Of a stretch of 64,000 nt of DNA, positions 248 to 6,949 are shown in pieces (the first letter of the stretch is position 1; every line of letters starts with the position of its first letter). The notes under the pieces were generated by a model, which was not told the origin of the DNA, made no database searches, and saw only the letters and a list, made by a program, of their open reading frames with translations. Origin of the DNA: Parasedimentitalea maritima (GTDB lineage Bacteria > Pseudomonadota > Alphaproteobacteria > Rhodobacterales > Rhodobacteraceae); the NCBI RefSeq assembly GCF_005771405.1, contig NZ_VAUA01000010.1:1-64000 (forward strand), in the 5' to 3' direction. Made by a program: the position numbers and the translations under genes.

Positions 248-489
248 CAAACCAACCCGCCCAATTGATTGCGATCGATCCTGACGCCCTCAATGGCCTA
301 ATTGCCGAGGTCAAAGCGCTGCGCAATGAAGTGAGACAGGCACGGATCAAGCCGGCCAATAAATGGATCACAATTAAAGAGTATGCCGCAATCATTGGAA
401 AATCAGAAAGCACCGTGAACCGGCACATCGCTCTAGGTAAAGTCGTGACACACCCTGAAACGCGACTGGTTGCTAATCCAAACGCATAG
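244..489 (+). CDS. Small helix-turn-helix protein, excisionase-like
   Basis: The 81-residue product has a C-terminal helix-turn-helix of the excisionase/MerR type: WITIKEYAAIIGKSESTVNR followed by a short wing. A polar N-terminal half could be a coiled segment. The ATG at 244 is chosen because it overlaps the upstream stop as ATGA; a longer frame from 214 lacks support. The gene converges on the integrase and their 3' ends overlap by 17 bases. A recombination directionality factor is the natural guess given that neighbour, but a plain transcription regulator is equally possible. Confidence 0.55.
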   Translation: MTNQPAQLIAIDPDALNGLIAEVKALRNEVRQARIKPANKWITIKEYAAIIGKSESTVNRHIALGKVVTHPETRLVANPNA

Positions 490-1435
490 CCAGCGCCTCG
501 GCATCCTCGTTGTAGTACACTTGCAGCATCCGTAAATCGCTGTGGCCCACGGTTCGGGCCAAGGCCAGCACATCCAACTTCTGTGATAGCCGCGTAATCG
601 CCTCATGCCTGCTGTCGTGGAAGGTCAGCCCTACCACCCCAGCCCGATCGCGCTGCTTGCGAAACAGAACATCCAACTGCCGACTGCTTAGTCCAAATAC
701 TGGGTTCAATTGAGGCAGCACTTTCAACAACCGAACGGCCTCAGTTGACAGAGGCACGTCACGGGGCCGCCCGTTTTTGGTGTGCATCAACCGGGCAACG
801 CGGCGATCCAGGTCAACCCGATCCCATTCAAGCCCTGCTATCTCACCCGCGCGCATTGCCGTTTCAATCGCGAACAGGAAGGCATGGAACGCTCTTGCCG
901 TTAGTTTAGTCAGATCCTCACCCGCGCTATGACGCATCCGATCGATCTCATCCAAGCTTGGTCGCCGATCACGCGGTGGCGGCTTTGAGGGCCGCTTTAC
1001 ATCACTGATGGGGTTCTCAGAAATCATCCCCCATTCTTTGCGCGCCACGTTTAACACTGCGCTCATTAGCTGCATTTCTCTGATCACTGACGCTGGTGCG
1101 ACCTCGCCCATACGACGATCTCGCCAGCCTGCAAAATCGCGCGGGGCAAGATCACCAAGCTTTTTGTCGGCAATCTTATCACGCTGCAGCTTCTCAAGGC
1201 GCACCACCTCCCAACGGCCACCGCGTTTTTGCGGCGATCGCTCTCGGGCATATCGATCCATCAGCGCTCCAAAGGTCGAAACCGCCGCAATCTTATCGCC
1301 GTTCAAAAGCTCATATTCTGCGCGGGCTGCCCAATCCTTGGCTGCCTGCTTAGTCGGAAAGACTCGGGATTTGCGAACGCCTTGCCTTGCGATCTCGGCC
1401 CTGTATCCTGATTTTAGTTTTCTAATAGACGCCAT
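473..1435 (-). CDS. Tyrosine-type site-specific integrase
   Basis: A complete 320-residue tyrosine recombinase. A SAM-like N-terminal DNA-binding region is followed by a catalytic domain with all key residues visible: Arg195 (AMRAGEIAGLEW), Lys220, His273-x-x-Arg276 (TFHDSRHEA), His298 (TVGHSDLRM) and the nucleophile Tyr307 or Tyr308. The ATG at 1435 gives the usual MASIRKLKSGYR start; the longer frame to 1606 would run through the tRNA 3' end. It begins 142 bases beyond the 3' end of tRNA-Leu, the standard position for the integrase of an element inserted in a tRNA gene. Nothing in it looks inactivated. Confidence 0.9.
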   Translation of the reverse strand: MASIRKLKSGYRAEIARQGVRKSRVFPTKQAAKDWAARAEYELLNGDKIAAVSTFGALMDRYARERSPQKRGGRWEVVRLEKLQRDKIADKKLGDLAPRDFAGWRDRRMGEVAPASVIREMQLMSAVLNVARKEWGMISENPISDVKRPSKPPPRDRRPSLDEIDRMRHSAGEDLTKLTARAFHAFLFAIETAMRAGEIAGLEWDRVDLDRRVARLMHTKNGRPRDVPLSTEAVRLLKVLPQLNPVFGLSSRQLDVLFRKQRDRAGVVGLTFHDSRHEAITRLSQKLDVLALARTVGHSDLRMLQVYYNEDAEALAMRLD

Positions 1436-1576
1436 AATTACGCACCGTGCGGAAAATATGCGTAAACCATCGCGTAAAACTACGCTTATAGCCACCCATA
1501 GCTTGATGGCATTTCGCGTAAAACAGGCAAAACGCCCTGTTTTAACTGCATTTTCCAGTAATGTAAGGAAAGTAGT

Positions 1577-1605
1577 TGGTGCGGTCGAGAAGACTCGAAC
1601 TTCCA
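1577..1605 (-). other. Candidate attachment site (3' end of tRNA-Leu)
   Basis: The T-arm and acceptor 3' strand of tRNA-Leu lie immediately upstream of a tRNA-type integrase. For this class of elements the crossover site is usually a short stretch of the tRNA 3' end, duplicated at the far end of the element. No second copy is present between 1 and 1576, so the other end must be left of the window. The assignment comes from gene order only. Confidence 0.4.
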
Positions 1606-1663
1606 CGGGTGTTACCCCACAGCGACCTCAACGCTGCGCGTCTACCAATTCCGCCACGACCGC
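1577..1663 (-). tRNA. tRNA-Leu (anticodon GAG)
   Basis: Read leftward, the 87-base sequence folds as a class II tRNA. It has a seven-pair acceptor stem GCGGTCG/CGACCGC, a D-arm with GGTAGA, an anticodon stem CAGCG/CGCTG enclosing loop TTGAGGT (anticodon GAG), a long variable arm, a T-loop with TTCGAGT, and an encoded CCA. The long variable arm and GAG anticodon identify leucine. Its 3' end faces the integrase. Confidence 0.95.
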
Positions 1664-1880: not shown

Positions 1881-3599
1881 TCAATTGCCAGATCCCTGTG
1901 CTGTGCGGGCCAGAAACAGATCACCGGACATCTGATCGTAGTAGGCTGGAAACTGGTCATGATTGACCTCAGACGCCAGAACCTGAACATCACGGCGAAC
2001 CTGCTTGGCCAACTGATGCAGCGTCATGCTTGGGTCCTGCAACCGAGGTAACAGCGCTCGTGTAAACACTGAGTTTGGATTGGCATCATTATCAGAAAGG
2101 CGATCAAGCGCGGTCTGCCCTGCCCCAGCGGAGTAAAGAATAAACGCTCCTTCGGGCGGATCCATCCGTACCAGCCCCCGACTTCCACCCACCGAACGTT
2201 TGCCATCGGATGGGAAGGGGTTATTGCGGCAAGCGTCAAGGATCATAACAGTGGTGCGTGCGCCTCTTTTTTGAAATGTCTCAAGAACGCGATCTGCTGC
2301 AATACTTTCCCCAGTCAGAAAGCTCTCATCTCCTAAATTGATCACCGGCACATCAGATGGCAGCAAAAAATTTCGCCCTTCGACTTCAACGCCGTGCCCC
2401 GCGAAATAAAACAGAACTTCGTCTCCGGGATCGATTTTATTGGCCATGGTGGACACCGCGCCATTTATGTCCCGACGACCGGCATCGTACAAAGTGCTCA
2501 CCTCAAAGCCTAGCCCAACCAATGTCTGGCTGATTGCCTGCGCGTCATTGCGAGCTTTTTGCAAAGCTGTAACATTATCATAGTTGTCTACACCGATGAC
2601 CAACGCCCACCGTTTATTCTGAGGCACAACAGCCGGCTGCGTTTGCTGCGGCGTGGCGGAGGCTGTTACGATCTCTCCGGAATTTGGCAATGCGGCAACA
2701 ACAGTTCCCAAAGGTGCCGCCTGTGTCTGCCCATTTTGGAAGACTTGACCTTGTGGAGCAGTCTGTCCCTGAGCCGCAAATTGTGCCTGTGGAACAAATT
2801 GACCTTGAGGTGACTGCTGCACCTGCGGTGCATATTGGCCTTGAGGTGCCGTGTATTGCCCCTGACCTGCATACTGCCCTTGAGGTGCGTATTGACCCTG
2901 AGGCGCTTGCTGACCCTGCGGTACGTATTGTCCTTGCGGGGTATATTGCCCTTGCGCGCCATAGGTCTGCACGTTTGTCTGGGCACCCGCGTTATAAGTC
3001 GGCTGCTGCCCCGACTGTCCATACTGCTGTGGAGCGCCATATATGTTTGGGTTTGGGTTGGTGTTCACCATCATCGTTTGAGGTTGATTAAACTGCTGCT
3101 GGTTTTGCATCGGCATATTTGGCTGTGGCACCATGCGTTCTGACAGATAAATCTTCAACAACCCTCGTGGTCCGTCTGGATGTGCCATCGCCTGCTGCGA
3201 GGCCAAATAGCCACTGGAAACCGCTCGCTTGTACGAACTGATCAAGAGCTCCTGCCCGTAAGGGCTAAGCTGGCCCGACACAGGGTATCCGAGATAAGCT
3301 TGATATTGAGAGACCGCCGTTTTGGTCTTGCGCCCAAGCTGACCGTCAACCGATCCCGCATCAAACCCAAAATAGTTGAGAGAGCTTTGAATCTCTTTCC
3401 CTTCCTGGGTGGAGGGTAACCTCGATCTCTGCGTTCCACCTCGTTGGCGACGCTTACCGCCATTGGAAAGCGCGCCGCCAATCAATCCACCAATAAGAGC
3501 CCCGGCGGCAAAATCACCGGCATCTGCTGATACCCGCTCTACGGGTGCTAATACCAAAGCACAGGAAAATATTGCTGTAGTTAGGAATTTAAGTTGCAT
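1881..3599 (-). CDS. Secreted caspase-like (peptidase C14) protein with peptidoglycan-binding domain and Gln-rich repeat
   Basis: 572 residues. In order: signal peptide (about 1-24, ending VSA), a glycine-zipper segment (about 28-45), a PG_binding_1 domain (about 62-123), a long Q/P/G/Y-rich linker with PQGQY-type repeats (about 210-290), and a caspase-fold domain from KRWALVIGVDNY (329) to near the end. The catalytic pair is visible: His402 in YFAGHG and Cys457 in LDACRNNP, so it should be an active cysteine peptidase of the prokaryotic caspase type with basic-residue specificity. The ATG at 3599 is chosen for the signal peptide and a GGAG site; the frame extends to 3683 without support. The single-gene unit has its own terminator. 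An envelope or periplasmic role is inferred from the signal and peptidoglycan-binding domain; the substrate is unknown. Confidence 0.85.
   Translation of the reverse strand: MQLKFLTTAIFSCALVLAPVERVSADAGDFAAGALIGGLIGGALSNGGKRRQRGGTQRSRLPSTQEGKEIQSSLNYFGFDAGSVDGQLGRKTKTAVSQYQAYLGYPVSGQLSPYGQELLISSYKRAVSSGYLASQQAMAHPDGPRGLLKIYLSERMVPQPNMPMQNQQQFNQPQTMMVNTNPNPNIYGAPQQYGQSGQQPTYNAGAQTNVQTYGAQGQYTPQGQYVPQGQQAPQGQYAPQGQYAGQGQYTAPQGQYAPQVQQSPQGQFVPQAQFAAQGQTAPQGQVFQNGQTQAAPLGTVVAALPNSGEIVTASATPQQTQPAVVPQNKRWALVIGVDNYDNVTALQKARNDAQAISQTLVGLGFEVSTLYDAGRRDINGAVSTMANKIDPGDEVLFYFAGHGVEVEGRNFLLPSDVPVINLGDESFLTGESIAADRVLETFQKRGARTTVMILDACRNNPFPSDGKRSVGGSRGLVRMDPPEGAFILYSAGAGQTALDRLSDNDANPNSVFTRALLPRLQDPSMTLHQLAKQVRRDVQVLASEVNHDQFPAYYDQMSGDLFLARTAQGSGN
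2742..2960 (-). repeat. Tandem PQGQY-type coding repeat
   Basis: Inside the caspase-like gene, units of about five codons reading roughly PQGQ(Y/Q)(A/V/T) are repeated a dozen or so times. The DNA repeats as well as the protein: on the plus strand, variants of TATTG(A/C)CCTTG(A/C)GG recur. Such an array is prone to length change by slippage, so linker length may vary between strains. It probably forms a flexible tether between the wall-binding and caspase domains. Confidence 0.75.
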
Positions 3600-3707
3600 T
3601 TCAATCTCCAAAATCACTCGCGAACCAACAACTGGCTTAACAATAACTGATAAACCCATCTTGAAAAGGCTGGAATTCACCACCCCAAAACACTTATGAA
3701 GGCGTAA

Positions 3708-4382
3708 ATGGCAATAATGAGATTAAATATGGTTGAATGGATCACCAGCGACGGGCTGACCGATTATGATGAAGCCGTAACCTTTATGGAAAATCGGGTC
3801 GCAGCCATTGCAGCTGGCAAGGCCGAAGAATGCATCTGGTTGGTCGAGCATCCAGCACTTTATACCGCCGGGACCTCTGCCAAGCGTGAGGACCTGACCG
3901 ACCCAGATCGGTTCCCTGTCTATGAGAGCAAACGCGGCGGCCAATATACCTATCACGGCCCGGGCCAACGAGTTGTCTATGTGATGCTGGATGTCGGCAA
4001 GCGTGGGCGGGACGTGCGTCGTTTCGTGCAACAGCTAGAACAGTGGGTGATCTTGACCTTGGAGCAGTTCAACATTACGGGGCACATCCGCGAAGGTCGC
4101 GTCGGCGTTTGGGTAGAGCGAGACGACAGACCGCTGACGGCCTTGGGGGCGAAAGCCGAGGACAAGATAGCAGCAATAGGAATCCGGCTACGAAAATGGA
4201 TCAGTTTTCACGGCATTTCGATCAATCTCGATCCTGATCTCAGCCACTTTGACGGCATTGTGCCCTGTGGCATCACTGAGCATGGGGTTACCAGCCTCGT
4301 TGATTTGGGCCTGCCCGTCAGTATGCCTGATGTTGATATCGCTCTGCATCATGGCTTTGGACAAGTTTTCGAGACGGACTGA
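3708..4382 (+). CDS. lipB: Octanoyl-[acyl carrier protein] transferase (lipoate biosynthesis)
   Basis: LipB moves octanoate from acyl carrier protein to lipoyl domains, the first step of endogenous lipoate synthesis in the cytoplasm; LipA then inserts sulfur. The 224-residue product carries the family signature [12 protein letters not shown] (76-87), the catalytic Lys153 in KIAAIG and the acyl-thioester Cys187 in [11 protein letters not shown]. The ATG at 3708 has AAGG five bases upstream; starts at 3717 or 3729 would also fit the family. It stands alone between divergent and convergent leftward genes. No lipA is present nearby. Confidence 0.95.
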
Positions 4383-4389
4383 GCCCTCC

Positions 4390-6102
4390 CTACCTGTCCG
4401 CCAATTCCTCTAACGCTGAGAATACCAATTCCGGGCGGGTGTATAACAACAACCCTCCGCCGCCATGGCACAGCCGGACCTGTACATTGCTTCGTCCTAT
4501 CATTGCTCGCTGCAGACGTTCAGTCGAAGTGACCTGATCGCCTTCACCATGCAGGTAGATTACCGGCGCCGTAGGGCCATCAATATGACGTCGCCAATCG
4601 TTAACAATCCAATGAAAGTCGGCCATTAGCCCCGTACACTGCTGCATCAAAGACATGTCATGACTGGACTGAAGAAGCGCCGTCATCGTTGGGCTTTCCA
4701 ACAGATCGTTTGCGTCGCCATCAATTCCAGGCTGCGATCGCGCAAGTGTCATTAGACCGTTCTGTCGAATGGACCGCGCCCAGTGCTTAACCACTAAGGG
4801 CATAATCTTAGGGCTATAGGTTGCAGTTAGCGCCATCATCCGCAGATGCCCCGTCAGGCTGGACAGCTCTCGCAGGTTCTGTGTTGGCCCCATACCTGAG
4901 ACAATTACAGCCCCGGCGACCCGGTCGCGCAGTCTTCGTGCTGCTATATGTGCAAATGAGGCGCCCCCTCTGTGCCCCAACAGAATTGGACGCTGCAGGT
5001 TTTCCTGTTCCAACAACCCTTCCAGCTGATCAATAAAGATGTCAAAACTGCGTTCTGGCGTTGGCGTCGGGCCGGAACACCCATAGCCACAGCGCAGCGG
5101 AGCATACACGCGAAACCCGCGTTTCCTGAACTGTGATTGCAGCCGCTGCACCCCAGAAATACCATCCAGTAGGCCGTGCAAAAAAATGACCGGTTGCCCG
5201 GTGTCCGCGCCTATTTTGTAAAACTGTAGCGGATGATTGCTCGAACGCACCAACCGTCCTTCTGGTGGTGGTTCGACACCGCTTGCAATGCGGTCATCCG
5301 TAGCAAGCTCGTCTATGAGAAAGCAAAACAAGCGGAGCATTTCAGCCAACCCCGGGGCGCCAGTTTTGGCGATGATCATTTGTAGCTGTGCTTCAAGGCC
5401 TACCAACCCACCATGGGTGGTCATGGCTAGATCCTCAAGGCTTTCTCCTTCGAAAATACTGCCTAACAGCTCCAGTTCTTGCAGATGCAGCCCAAACGTT
5501 GCCGCCAACATATCCCTGGCACGTTTCGTCCATTCAAAATCCAAGGCCTCTATCATCACACCAAAAGAGGCCTGTAGACCATATCCGCTGCTGACCGACC
5601 TGCACAGCAGCCTGCGAGCTCCATCAAGCCTTAGCAAAACCTCAGGGCCATTTCGGCTATGGGCAGGCAGTCCCAACTGTGACAATCGCCGTTTGACCCT
5701 GGCTTGACCGTTTAGGCTAAGATCCAGAGCTGTCAGCACATCGACATCATCCTTTTGCAGAAAAGCCCGTGCGACGCGACTGGCACGGGAAACTTTTCCA
5801 TCTACGTCCAATAGTATCCAAAAGTTATCGCCCCCTTCAAAAAATTGCGCTGGTTTTGGACGGCCGGATCTACTCCACTGTTGTTCCAATATCTCGACCG
5901 CACGGGCAAAATGCAACGCAAGGTCCAGATCTGCTCCTGGCTTTTGCAGCTGTGGGGGCTGAATAGTTTCAGCAGGTCTAGAAATTTCATTTTCTGTCGG
6001 CTTCAAAAAGAAATCGCACAGCTCAGATCGAATTACGGTTTCATATATAGCAGCAATAGTCTGATGCTGAGACAAGGCATGTACACGCTGTAACAATGTC
6101 AC
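4390..6102 (-). CDS. PAS-like and LuxR-type HTH regulator fused to a degenerate alpha/beta hydrolase
   Basis: 570 residues from a GTG at 6102 with AGGAG upstream. A PAS-like region (about 85-190, FWILLDVDGKVSRAS) precedes a LuxR-type helix-turn-helix (about 202-260, FGLHLQELELLGSIFEGESLE onward) and an alpha/beta-hydrolase fold (about 290-568, PVIFLHGLLDG). The nucleophile elbow reads LLGHRGGAS, so Arg378 stands where Ser is expected. The usual C-terminal GxGH is GGGGLLLY, so the catalytic His appears to be missing; the acid position Asp522 is kept. I infer a ligand-sensing rather than hydrolytic domain driving a transcription factor. The recognition helix region (EDLAMTTHGGLVGLEAQL) is also unusual. 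No target is evident. It ends 8 bases from lipB, convergent. Confidence 0.75.
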   Translation of the reverse strand: MTLLQRVHALSQHQTIAAIYETVIRSELCDFFLKPTENEISRPAETIQPPQLQKPGADLDLALHFARAVEILEQQWSRSGRPKPAQFFEGGDNFWILLDVDGKVSRASRVARAFLQKDDVDVLTALDLSLNGQARVKRRLSQLGLPAHSRNGPEVLLRLDGARRLLCRSVSSGYGLQASFGVMIEALDFEWTKRARDMLAATFGLHLQELELLGSIFEGESLEDLAMTTHGGLVGLEAQLQMIIAKTGAPGLAEMLRLFCFLIDELATDDRIASGVEPPPEGRLVRSSNHPLQFYKIGADTGQPVIFLHGLLDGISGVQRLQSQFRKRGFRVYAPLRCGYGCSGPTPTPERSFDIFIDQLEGLLEQENLQRPILLGHRGGASFAHIAARRLRDRVAGAVIVSGMGPTQNLRELSSLTGHLRMMALTATYSPKIMPLVVKHWARSIRQNGLMTLARSQPGIDGDANDLLESPTMTALLQSSHDMSLMQQCTGLMADFHWIVNDWRRHIDGPTAPVIYLHGEGDQVTSTERLQRAMIGRSNVQVRLCHGGGGLLLYTRPELVFSALEELADR

Positions 6103-6330
6103 ATCGCTCCTAAAAGAAGTCTTCGAATCAATTATTAACGAGCCTATACGGCAAGCCTGATAAGCAATATTTGATCACAAAAAGTTACCAGAACTATGTG
6201 AATAAATTATTTATCAGGGAATTGCATTATCGAATATCAACGCAACGTATAAATGTACGCAGCTGCGCCAGGATGCCTAATGCATTTCCGAGCAGCGGAA
6301 TTCAGATCAACGCCCATTGAGTAATGATTT

Positions 6331-6753
6331 TTACAACTTTAGCAGAGTGTTGCGAATTTTTTCCGCATTTTTCTGAATGACGTCTTGATCACCCATCTTT
6401 CCTGGCGCCCCAAGGCGATCACCTGCCTGCCGTGGGAGCAAATGGAAATGCAAATGGAAGACTTCCTGTCCACCAGCGGCTTCGTTGAATTGTTGCAACG
6501 TGATTCCGTCAGCGTCAAAACTCGACATTAGCGCACGGGACATTTTCTGAACGGTCTTCATTACCGCCGCTAGTTGGTCAGGTGTTGCATCAAGAACATT
6601 ACGGCAAGGTGTCTTGGGAATAACAAGAACATGTCCATCAGCACGCGGCATAATATCCATAAACACCAGCGTTTCACTGTCCTCATAGACCCGAGTAGCT
6701 GGAATTTCCCCACGTAGGATTTTGGCAAAAATGTTGTCCGTATCGTAGTTCAT
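6331..6753 (-). CDS. HIT-family nucleotide-binding hydrolase
   Basis: The 140-residue product is a standard histidine-triad protein: FAKILRGEIPA near the start, GHVLVIPK, and the triad H100-L-H102-F-H104 followed by LLPR. HIT proteins of this branch (HinT/YcgI-like) cleave nucleoside phosphoramidates or related AMP conjugates. The ATG at 6753 gives the family's usual MNYDTDNIF start. It is divergent from ctaD. The region 6103-6330 on its downstream side is AT-rich and holds nothing I can recognise. Confidence 0.9.
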   Translation of the reverse strand: MNYDTDNIFAKILRGEIPATRVYEDSETLVFMDIMPRADGHVLVIPKTPCRNVLDATPDQLAAVMKTVQKMSRALMSSFDADGITLQQFNEAAGGQEVFHLHFHLLPRQAGDRLGAPGKMGDQDVIQKNAEKIRNTLLKL

Positions 6754-6949
6754 GGTGCGTCCTTGCAAAATTGCGAGCTGAATTGCCCCTTTTAAGTTCC
6801 ACTTTCAGACCGTCAAGACCTGGACCTTTAGATGACCGCGCTGACGACAACCTGTTCGCAATACGTACCAATGCACTGAGAAAACTCCCATTCCTTAATT
6901 CCGGCCAGTCAATTTTCAACCAACACAGAGGGGGGCGCGTCAATTTATC

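Follow-up and report, generated by a model that had tools for sequence, protein, structure and literature searches.

The window (the whole stretch of DNA analysed, 64,000 nucleotides) carries on its minus strand a gene for a 570-residue protein, lying between a lipB-like and a HIT-like gene. The ORF listing gives this frame exactly the limits that the earlier note had assigned to it. The features of the locus are as follows.

4390..6102, minus strand: whole gene, 570 aa, GTG start (ORF list, Pfam, alignment of relatives)
6107..6111, minus strand: likely ribosome-binding site AGGAG, read from the sequence ahead of the GTG start
5863..6072, minus strand: N-terminal part, residues 11-80, with the family motif around IYET (alignments)
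5533..5850, minus strand: region of PAS-like character, roughly residues 85-190 (PAS models match relatives and do not match the window copy)
5311..5505, minus strand: residues 200-264, once a LuxR HTH, now without the recognition helix and with the last helix retained
4393..5235, minus strand: alpha/beta-hydrolase domain, residues 290-570 (Pfam and profile alignments to solved structures)
4963..4977, minus strand: nucleophile elbow GHRGG, residues 376-380; the Arg378 codon is 4969-4971
4537..4539, minus strand: Asp522, the retained acid (family alignment)
4453..4455, minus strand: Gly550, at the position of the catalytic His (family alignment)
3708..4382, plus strand: neighbour presumed from its sequence to be lipB-like, tail to tail with the gene (regions L069-L085)
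6331..6768, minus strand: neighbour that we take to be HIT-like (regions L069-L085)

Comparison of 17 regions (L069-L085) showed that lipB adjoins the gene in all of them, in HTH-bearing and HTH-less copies alike and also beside a broken remnant in genome G005, and that the HIT-like gene is present in 16. These 17 were drawn from 19 regions, the two omitted being a paralogue locus (L086) and a locus at a contig end that has HIT and ctaD without lipB (L087). The copy of Zongyanglinia huanghaiensis CY05 is 93% identical to the window protein. On the other side of lipB lies an ORF with a glutamine-rich repeated stretch (1881-3683, minus strand), presumably caspase-like, and the window begins with an ORF that we take to be integrase-like (473-1606, minus strand). 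A by-eye alignment of the upstream DNA of seven genus members gave nothing convincing as a shared operator.

The window protein matched the Pfam families Hydrolase_4 (4.4e-11) and Abhydrolase_1 (5.3e-11), and Pfam hydrolase matches extend to 12/12 members of the clade described below. In the family alignment the triad positions of the window copy are occupied by Arg378, Asp522 and Gly550, and when profiles were aligned to solved hydrolases, Arg378 coincided with a Ser in 9wlv and with an Asp in 5bov. The window protein thus lacks the residues of an active serine hydrolase. The earlier note had described a domain that keeps the fold motifs and the acid and has lost the catalytic Ser and His, and both parts of that description agree with the profile matches and the alignment. 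We know of no precedent for Arg in a nucleophile elbow. AlphaFold models, made for the window protein, L044 and L045, were too low in confidence for use (pLDDT 35.2 for the whole protein and 39.6 for the hydrolase part). At E<=1, Pfam reported hydrolase families only, and the autoinducer-binding domain of LuxR-type AHL receptors was absent.

A family profile was built from 44 relatives. Of 394 sampled genomes in the bacterial family of the window, 99 had a match (E<=1e-40), as had 27 of 249 genomes in a phylum-wide draw (E<=1e-30), 16 of these 27 belonging to one family of another class; paralogue counts from the 394-genome sample are lower bounds. These matches rule out that the protein occurs only in this genus. 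Among the matches listed, family members in plasmid records are labelled as enzyme or regulator. After removal of duplicates, 129 distinct full-length members were aligned. Eleven frames were omitted as covering <75% of the model or being <380 aa long, namely contig-end or short frames (L087, the second frame of L036, L101, L103), the three pieces of L067 and the plain hydrolases L027-L030; twelve matched places also lie outside the alignment (G621:C260, G762, G001:C1, G647, G475, G764, G634, G592, G552, G618:C5, G046 and G728:C99).

The states at the nucleophile, acid and His positions of the 129 members were Gly-Asp-Gln in 40, Met-Asp-Gln in 15, Leu-Asp-Gln in 10, Ser-Asp-His in 9, Asp-Asp-His in 2, and various others in the rest. 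Because Ser-Asp-His is found in only 9/129 members, while the His position is Gln in 74 (His in 18) and the acid is Asp in 113, the family looks like one of hydrolase-derived sensors, and in most of the members examined the domain looks like a non-catalytic ligand-binding module. Each clade has fixed replacements of its own, which would suggest that the pocket took on another function and did not merely drift. Several intact Ser-Asp-His triads occur in relatives outside the class, in family f182 (L095-L107 and others; 16 genomes). Seven members (L014, L039, L041, L068, L038, L145 and L149) have an Asp elbow and retain the His, as in dehalogenase or epoxide-hydrolase types; their acid position is Ser in 4/7 and Asn in 1/7. 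A relative in the same genome as the window protein (L031/L086, G000:C22:132336-133961) keeps Ser-Asp-His intact, has a weak GerE match (E 0.0019) and is divergent from a small LuxR-like ORF; it offers a natural enzyme control for the window protein. The family offers three kinds of protein, with an intact Ser-Asp-His, without the triad but with an HTH, and without either, as material for following step by step how an enzyme may become a receptor and a regulator may give up DNA. The family, in which most of the 129 aligned members have no triad, is a candidate bacterial reservoir of hydrolase-derived receptors.

Arg occupies the nucleophile position in 13/129 members, and 12 of these, including the window copy, form one clade, with a support of 100 in a quick tree of all 129 members and of 100/100 in a careful tree of 33, from which the HTH and triad columns were excluded. 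Its presence in 12/12 clade members is more than chance would give. The thirteenth, L024, falls outside the clade, has Arg-Asn-Gln and carries an HTH. The clade lies inside a group common to one chromosomal spot, which comprises both HTH-bearing and HTH-less members; in the sister group of the clade, 10 of the 11 members have lipB at the locus, and L053 has none there. On the 33-member tree, the gain of Arg, the change of the His position from Gln to a small residue and the loss of the HTH each need a single change, and all three fall on the stem of the clade; since they share that one branch, their coupling is unreplicated. In the same tree Ser at the nucleophile and His at the His position were each found in 0/33, which rules out a recent loss of the triad. 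The earlier note had proposed an alignment of homologues as a check on this point, and the 129-member alignment and the 33-member tree make the loss an old one, not recent to the window copy. Judged from these sequences, the loss of enzyme chemistry in the family is old.

An enzyme with unusual chemistry, in which Arg378, Asp522 and other pocket residues would act instead of Ser and His, is very improbable in our view. The alignment does show H309, H377, R378 and S480 in 12/12 clade members and D522 in 11/12, and a classification paper notes that some lyases with the alpha/beta-hydrolase fold can work without the serine (PMC11878206). The conserved H309, H377 and S480 may also supply a Ser/His pair elsewhere in the pocket, which the earlier note had named as a refutation of its reading. 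Against such an enzyme, the domain is fused to sensor and regulator parts, and most of the family is also without Ser and His and has other residues there.

A region ahead of the hydrolase domain was called PAS-like in the earlier note, and the matches support this, weakly, for the relatives and not for the window copy itself. PAS_4 matched 8/34 family N-termini, none of them from the Arg clade, with a best E of 5.4e-6, a weak signal; other PAS models matched fewer, and the solved-structure matches of the relatives' N-terminus were led by PAS proteins (best E 3.4e-5). In the window copy Pfam found no PAS at E<=1. The N-terminal part had a mean identity of 0.28 in the clade vs 0.39 in the sister group; these and the following region identities are mean pairwise values over 8 diverged clade members (near copies omitted from the 12) and 11 sisters.

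The same note took the next region for a LuxR HTH and the protein for a LuxR-type regulator, and here the results went the other way. Pfam found no GerE in the window protein at E<=1, and at E<=0.1 GerE was recognised in 0/12 Arg-clade members vs 11/11 members of the sister group, where at least L008 matches below Pfam's own cut-off. The stretch is nonetheless homologous to the LuxR HTH of the sisters. A T[VIL][KR] motif was found in 0/12 clade members, in 11/11 sisters and in 109/117 non-clade members, the remaining 8 of which read [ST][AG]R there instead; outside the Arg clade the HTH looks normal. Mean identity of the recognition helix was 0.17 in the clade vs 0.78 in the sisters, and that of the last HTH helix 0.54 vs 0.81. 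The recognition helix is deleted in L047, L048 and L051 and replaced in others of the clade, with part of it retained in L046. Net charge over residues 200-264 was -7 in the window protein, -7 to +3 in the clade (mean -1.5; L005 has +3) and 0 to +5 in the sisters (mean +3.1). Because GerE is missing from all 12 members and the recognition helix is lost, the name "LuxR regulator" is probably wrong for the window copy.

A protein that still binds DNA as a LuxR-type regulator with a hydrolase-derived sensor, its HTH having diverged past profile recognition, seems unlikely when set against the absence of GerE and of the motif, the helix deletions and the charge of the window copy. The homology of the stretch, the well kept last helix, the partial helix in L046 and the positive charge of some members all speak for it, as does selection. 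HTH residues 195-262 are under purifying selection, with Nei-Gojobori dN/dS of 0.086-0.184 in four genus pairs (0.184, 0.134, 0.086 and 0.103; a fifth pair was not computable); for the recognition-helix stretch alone the values were 0.246, 0.289, 0.185 and 0.426, the fifth again not computable. The hydrolase domain gave 0.04-0.23 over five pairs (0.042, 0.225, 0.091, 0.094 and 0.114), values that are rough because in the last three pairs dS approaches or exceeds 1. Since the former HTH stretch is about as constrained within the genus as the hydrolase, it still does something. The dN/dS values therefore indicate that the gene is maintained; they count against plain decay and leave room for altered DNA binding.

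In the hydrolase domain, constraint has gone up in the core of the Arg clade and down in its lid. Mean identity from beta3 to the elbow was 0.58 in the clade vs 0.44 in the sisters, that of the C-terminal part 0.46 vs 0.42, and that of the lid 0.32 vs 0.53. The lid accords with a decaying gene, one that lost its HTH and catalytic site by drift and retained no specific function, and so does the fast evolution of the gene, which is 58-66% identical across five genus members beside well conserved neighbours (mostly 70-95%). The gene can also be lost: in genus member G005 (L075) only fragments remain between the same HIT-like and lipB neighbours. These are two matching stretches of 54 and 83 aa, with an unrelated reading frame between them that we presume to be possibly transposase-like. 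A second broken family member, L067 (G589), lies in three open pieces. Decay is made quite improbable by the long open frames of the 12 clade members, the low dN/dS of the hydrolase, a core better conserved than in the sisters and Arg378 in 12/12. In this branch of marine bacterial proteins, the loss of the recognisable DNA-gripping helix, with the enzyme-like part under selection, suggests that the protein binds a signal and has ceased to work by gripping DNA.

We consider that there is about an even chance that the window protein is a receptor that neither catalyses nor binds DNA any longer and works by way of partner proteins. The family would be a one-component sensor of the order PAS, LuxR HTH and alpha/beta-hydrolase, whose hydrolase domain may bind a ligand without cutting it. 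The branch of the window would then have given up LuxR-type DNA contact and become a soluble receptor that alters a partner protein. Because LuxR-type DNA output is probably gone, output is probably by partner contact, and pairing would most simply involve the kept last HTH helix or the N-terminal/PAS part. The space vacated by the His could let Arg378 pair with Asp522; alternatively, Arg378 could hold an anionic ligand, e.g. a carboxylate. The sequence evidence for the receptor is the old triad loss, the clade-fixed Arg378, a small residue where the His would stand, the kept acid, the single HTH loss and the constrained core. What counts against it is the less conserved lid of the clade, L024 with both Arg and HTH, the constraint on the HTH stretch within the genus, the positive charge of some clade members and the fragments in G005. 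No HTH-bearing partner gene common to the Arg-clade genomes stands out, a weak result since three candidates were scored per genome. The genome has one autoinducer-synthase match (L168, G000:C1:539683-540114; PF00765, E 2.1e-23), and nothing ties it to the window gene. More tentatively, and with the balance tilted against it, a single branch may have switched a regulator to a stand-alone receptor, fixing an Arg that pairs with the old acid or with an anionic ligand, making room with a small residue in the His slot and discarding the DNA-reading helix, so that only partner contact was left. If true, the protein would be a bacterial counterpart in logic of GID1, the plant gibberellin receptor, and the HTH-bearing orthologues at the same spot would record an intermediate stage.

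Among known systems, the family profile has its best match to a solved structure in 9wlv, which spans the hydrolase domain (E 5e-35) and which its depositors label "pimeloyl-ACP methyl ester carboxylesterase". In this 290-residue chain the elbow is still GWSGG and the corresponding position still carries a His, whereas the window protein has GHRGG and Gly550. As to LuxR/FixJ (GerE) regulators, the sister group carries the GerE HTH at the same locus, whereas none is recognisable in the clade of the window. No title on a LuxR-hydrolase fusion of this kind was found in the open-licence literature, and in the available portions of PMC7159879, PMC13136126 and PMC2447327 the co-mentions are references or concern other systems. 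In Bacillus, RsbQ and RsbP pair an alpha/beta hydrolase with a PAS domain as a sensing module that requires the triad, according to the part of PMC3183031 available, and give a precedent for PAS plus hydrolase acting as one unit. They are two adjacent genes, whereas the window protein is one chain and does not have the intact Ser-Asp-His of the RsbQ type. GID1 is a hydrolase-fold protein that has lost the catalytic His and serves as a non-catalytic receptor, as described in PMC3531792. Its Ser is retained and touches the hormone, whereas the window protein has Arg there. To our knowledge, GID1 has neither a PAS domain nor a former HTH. As an analogy, the likeness to hydrolase-derived hormone receptors drawn in the earlier note appears reasonable.
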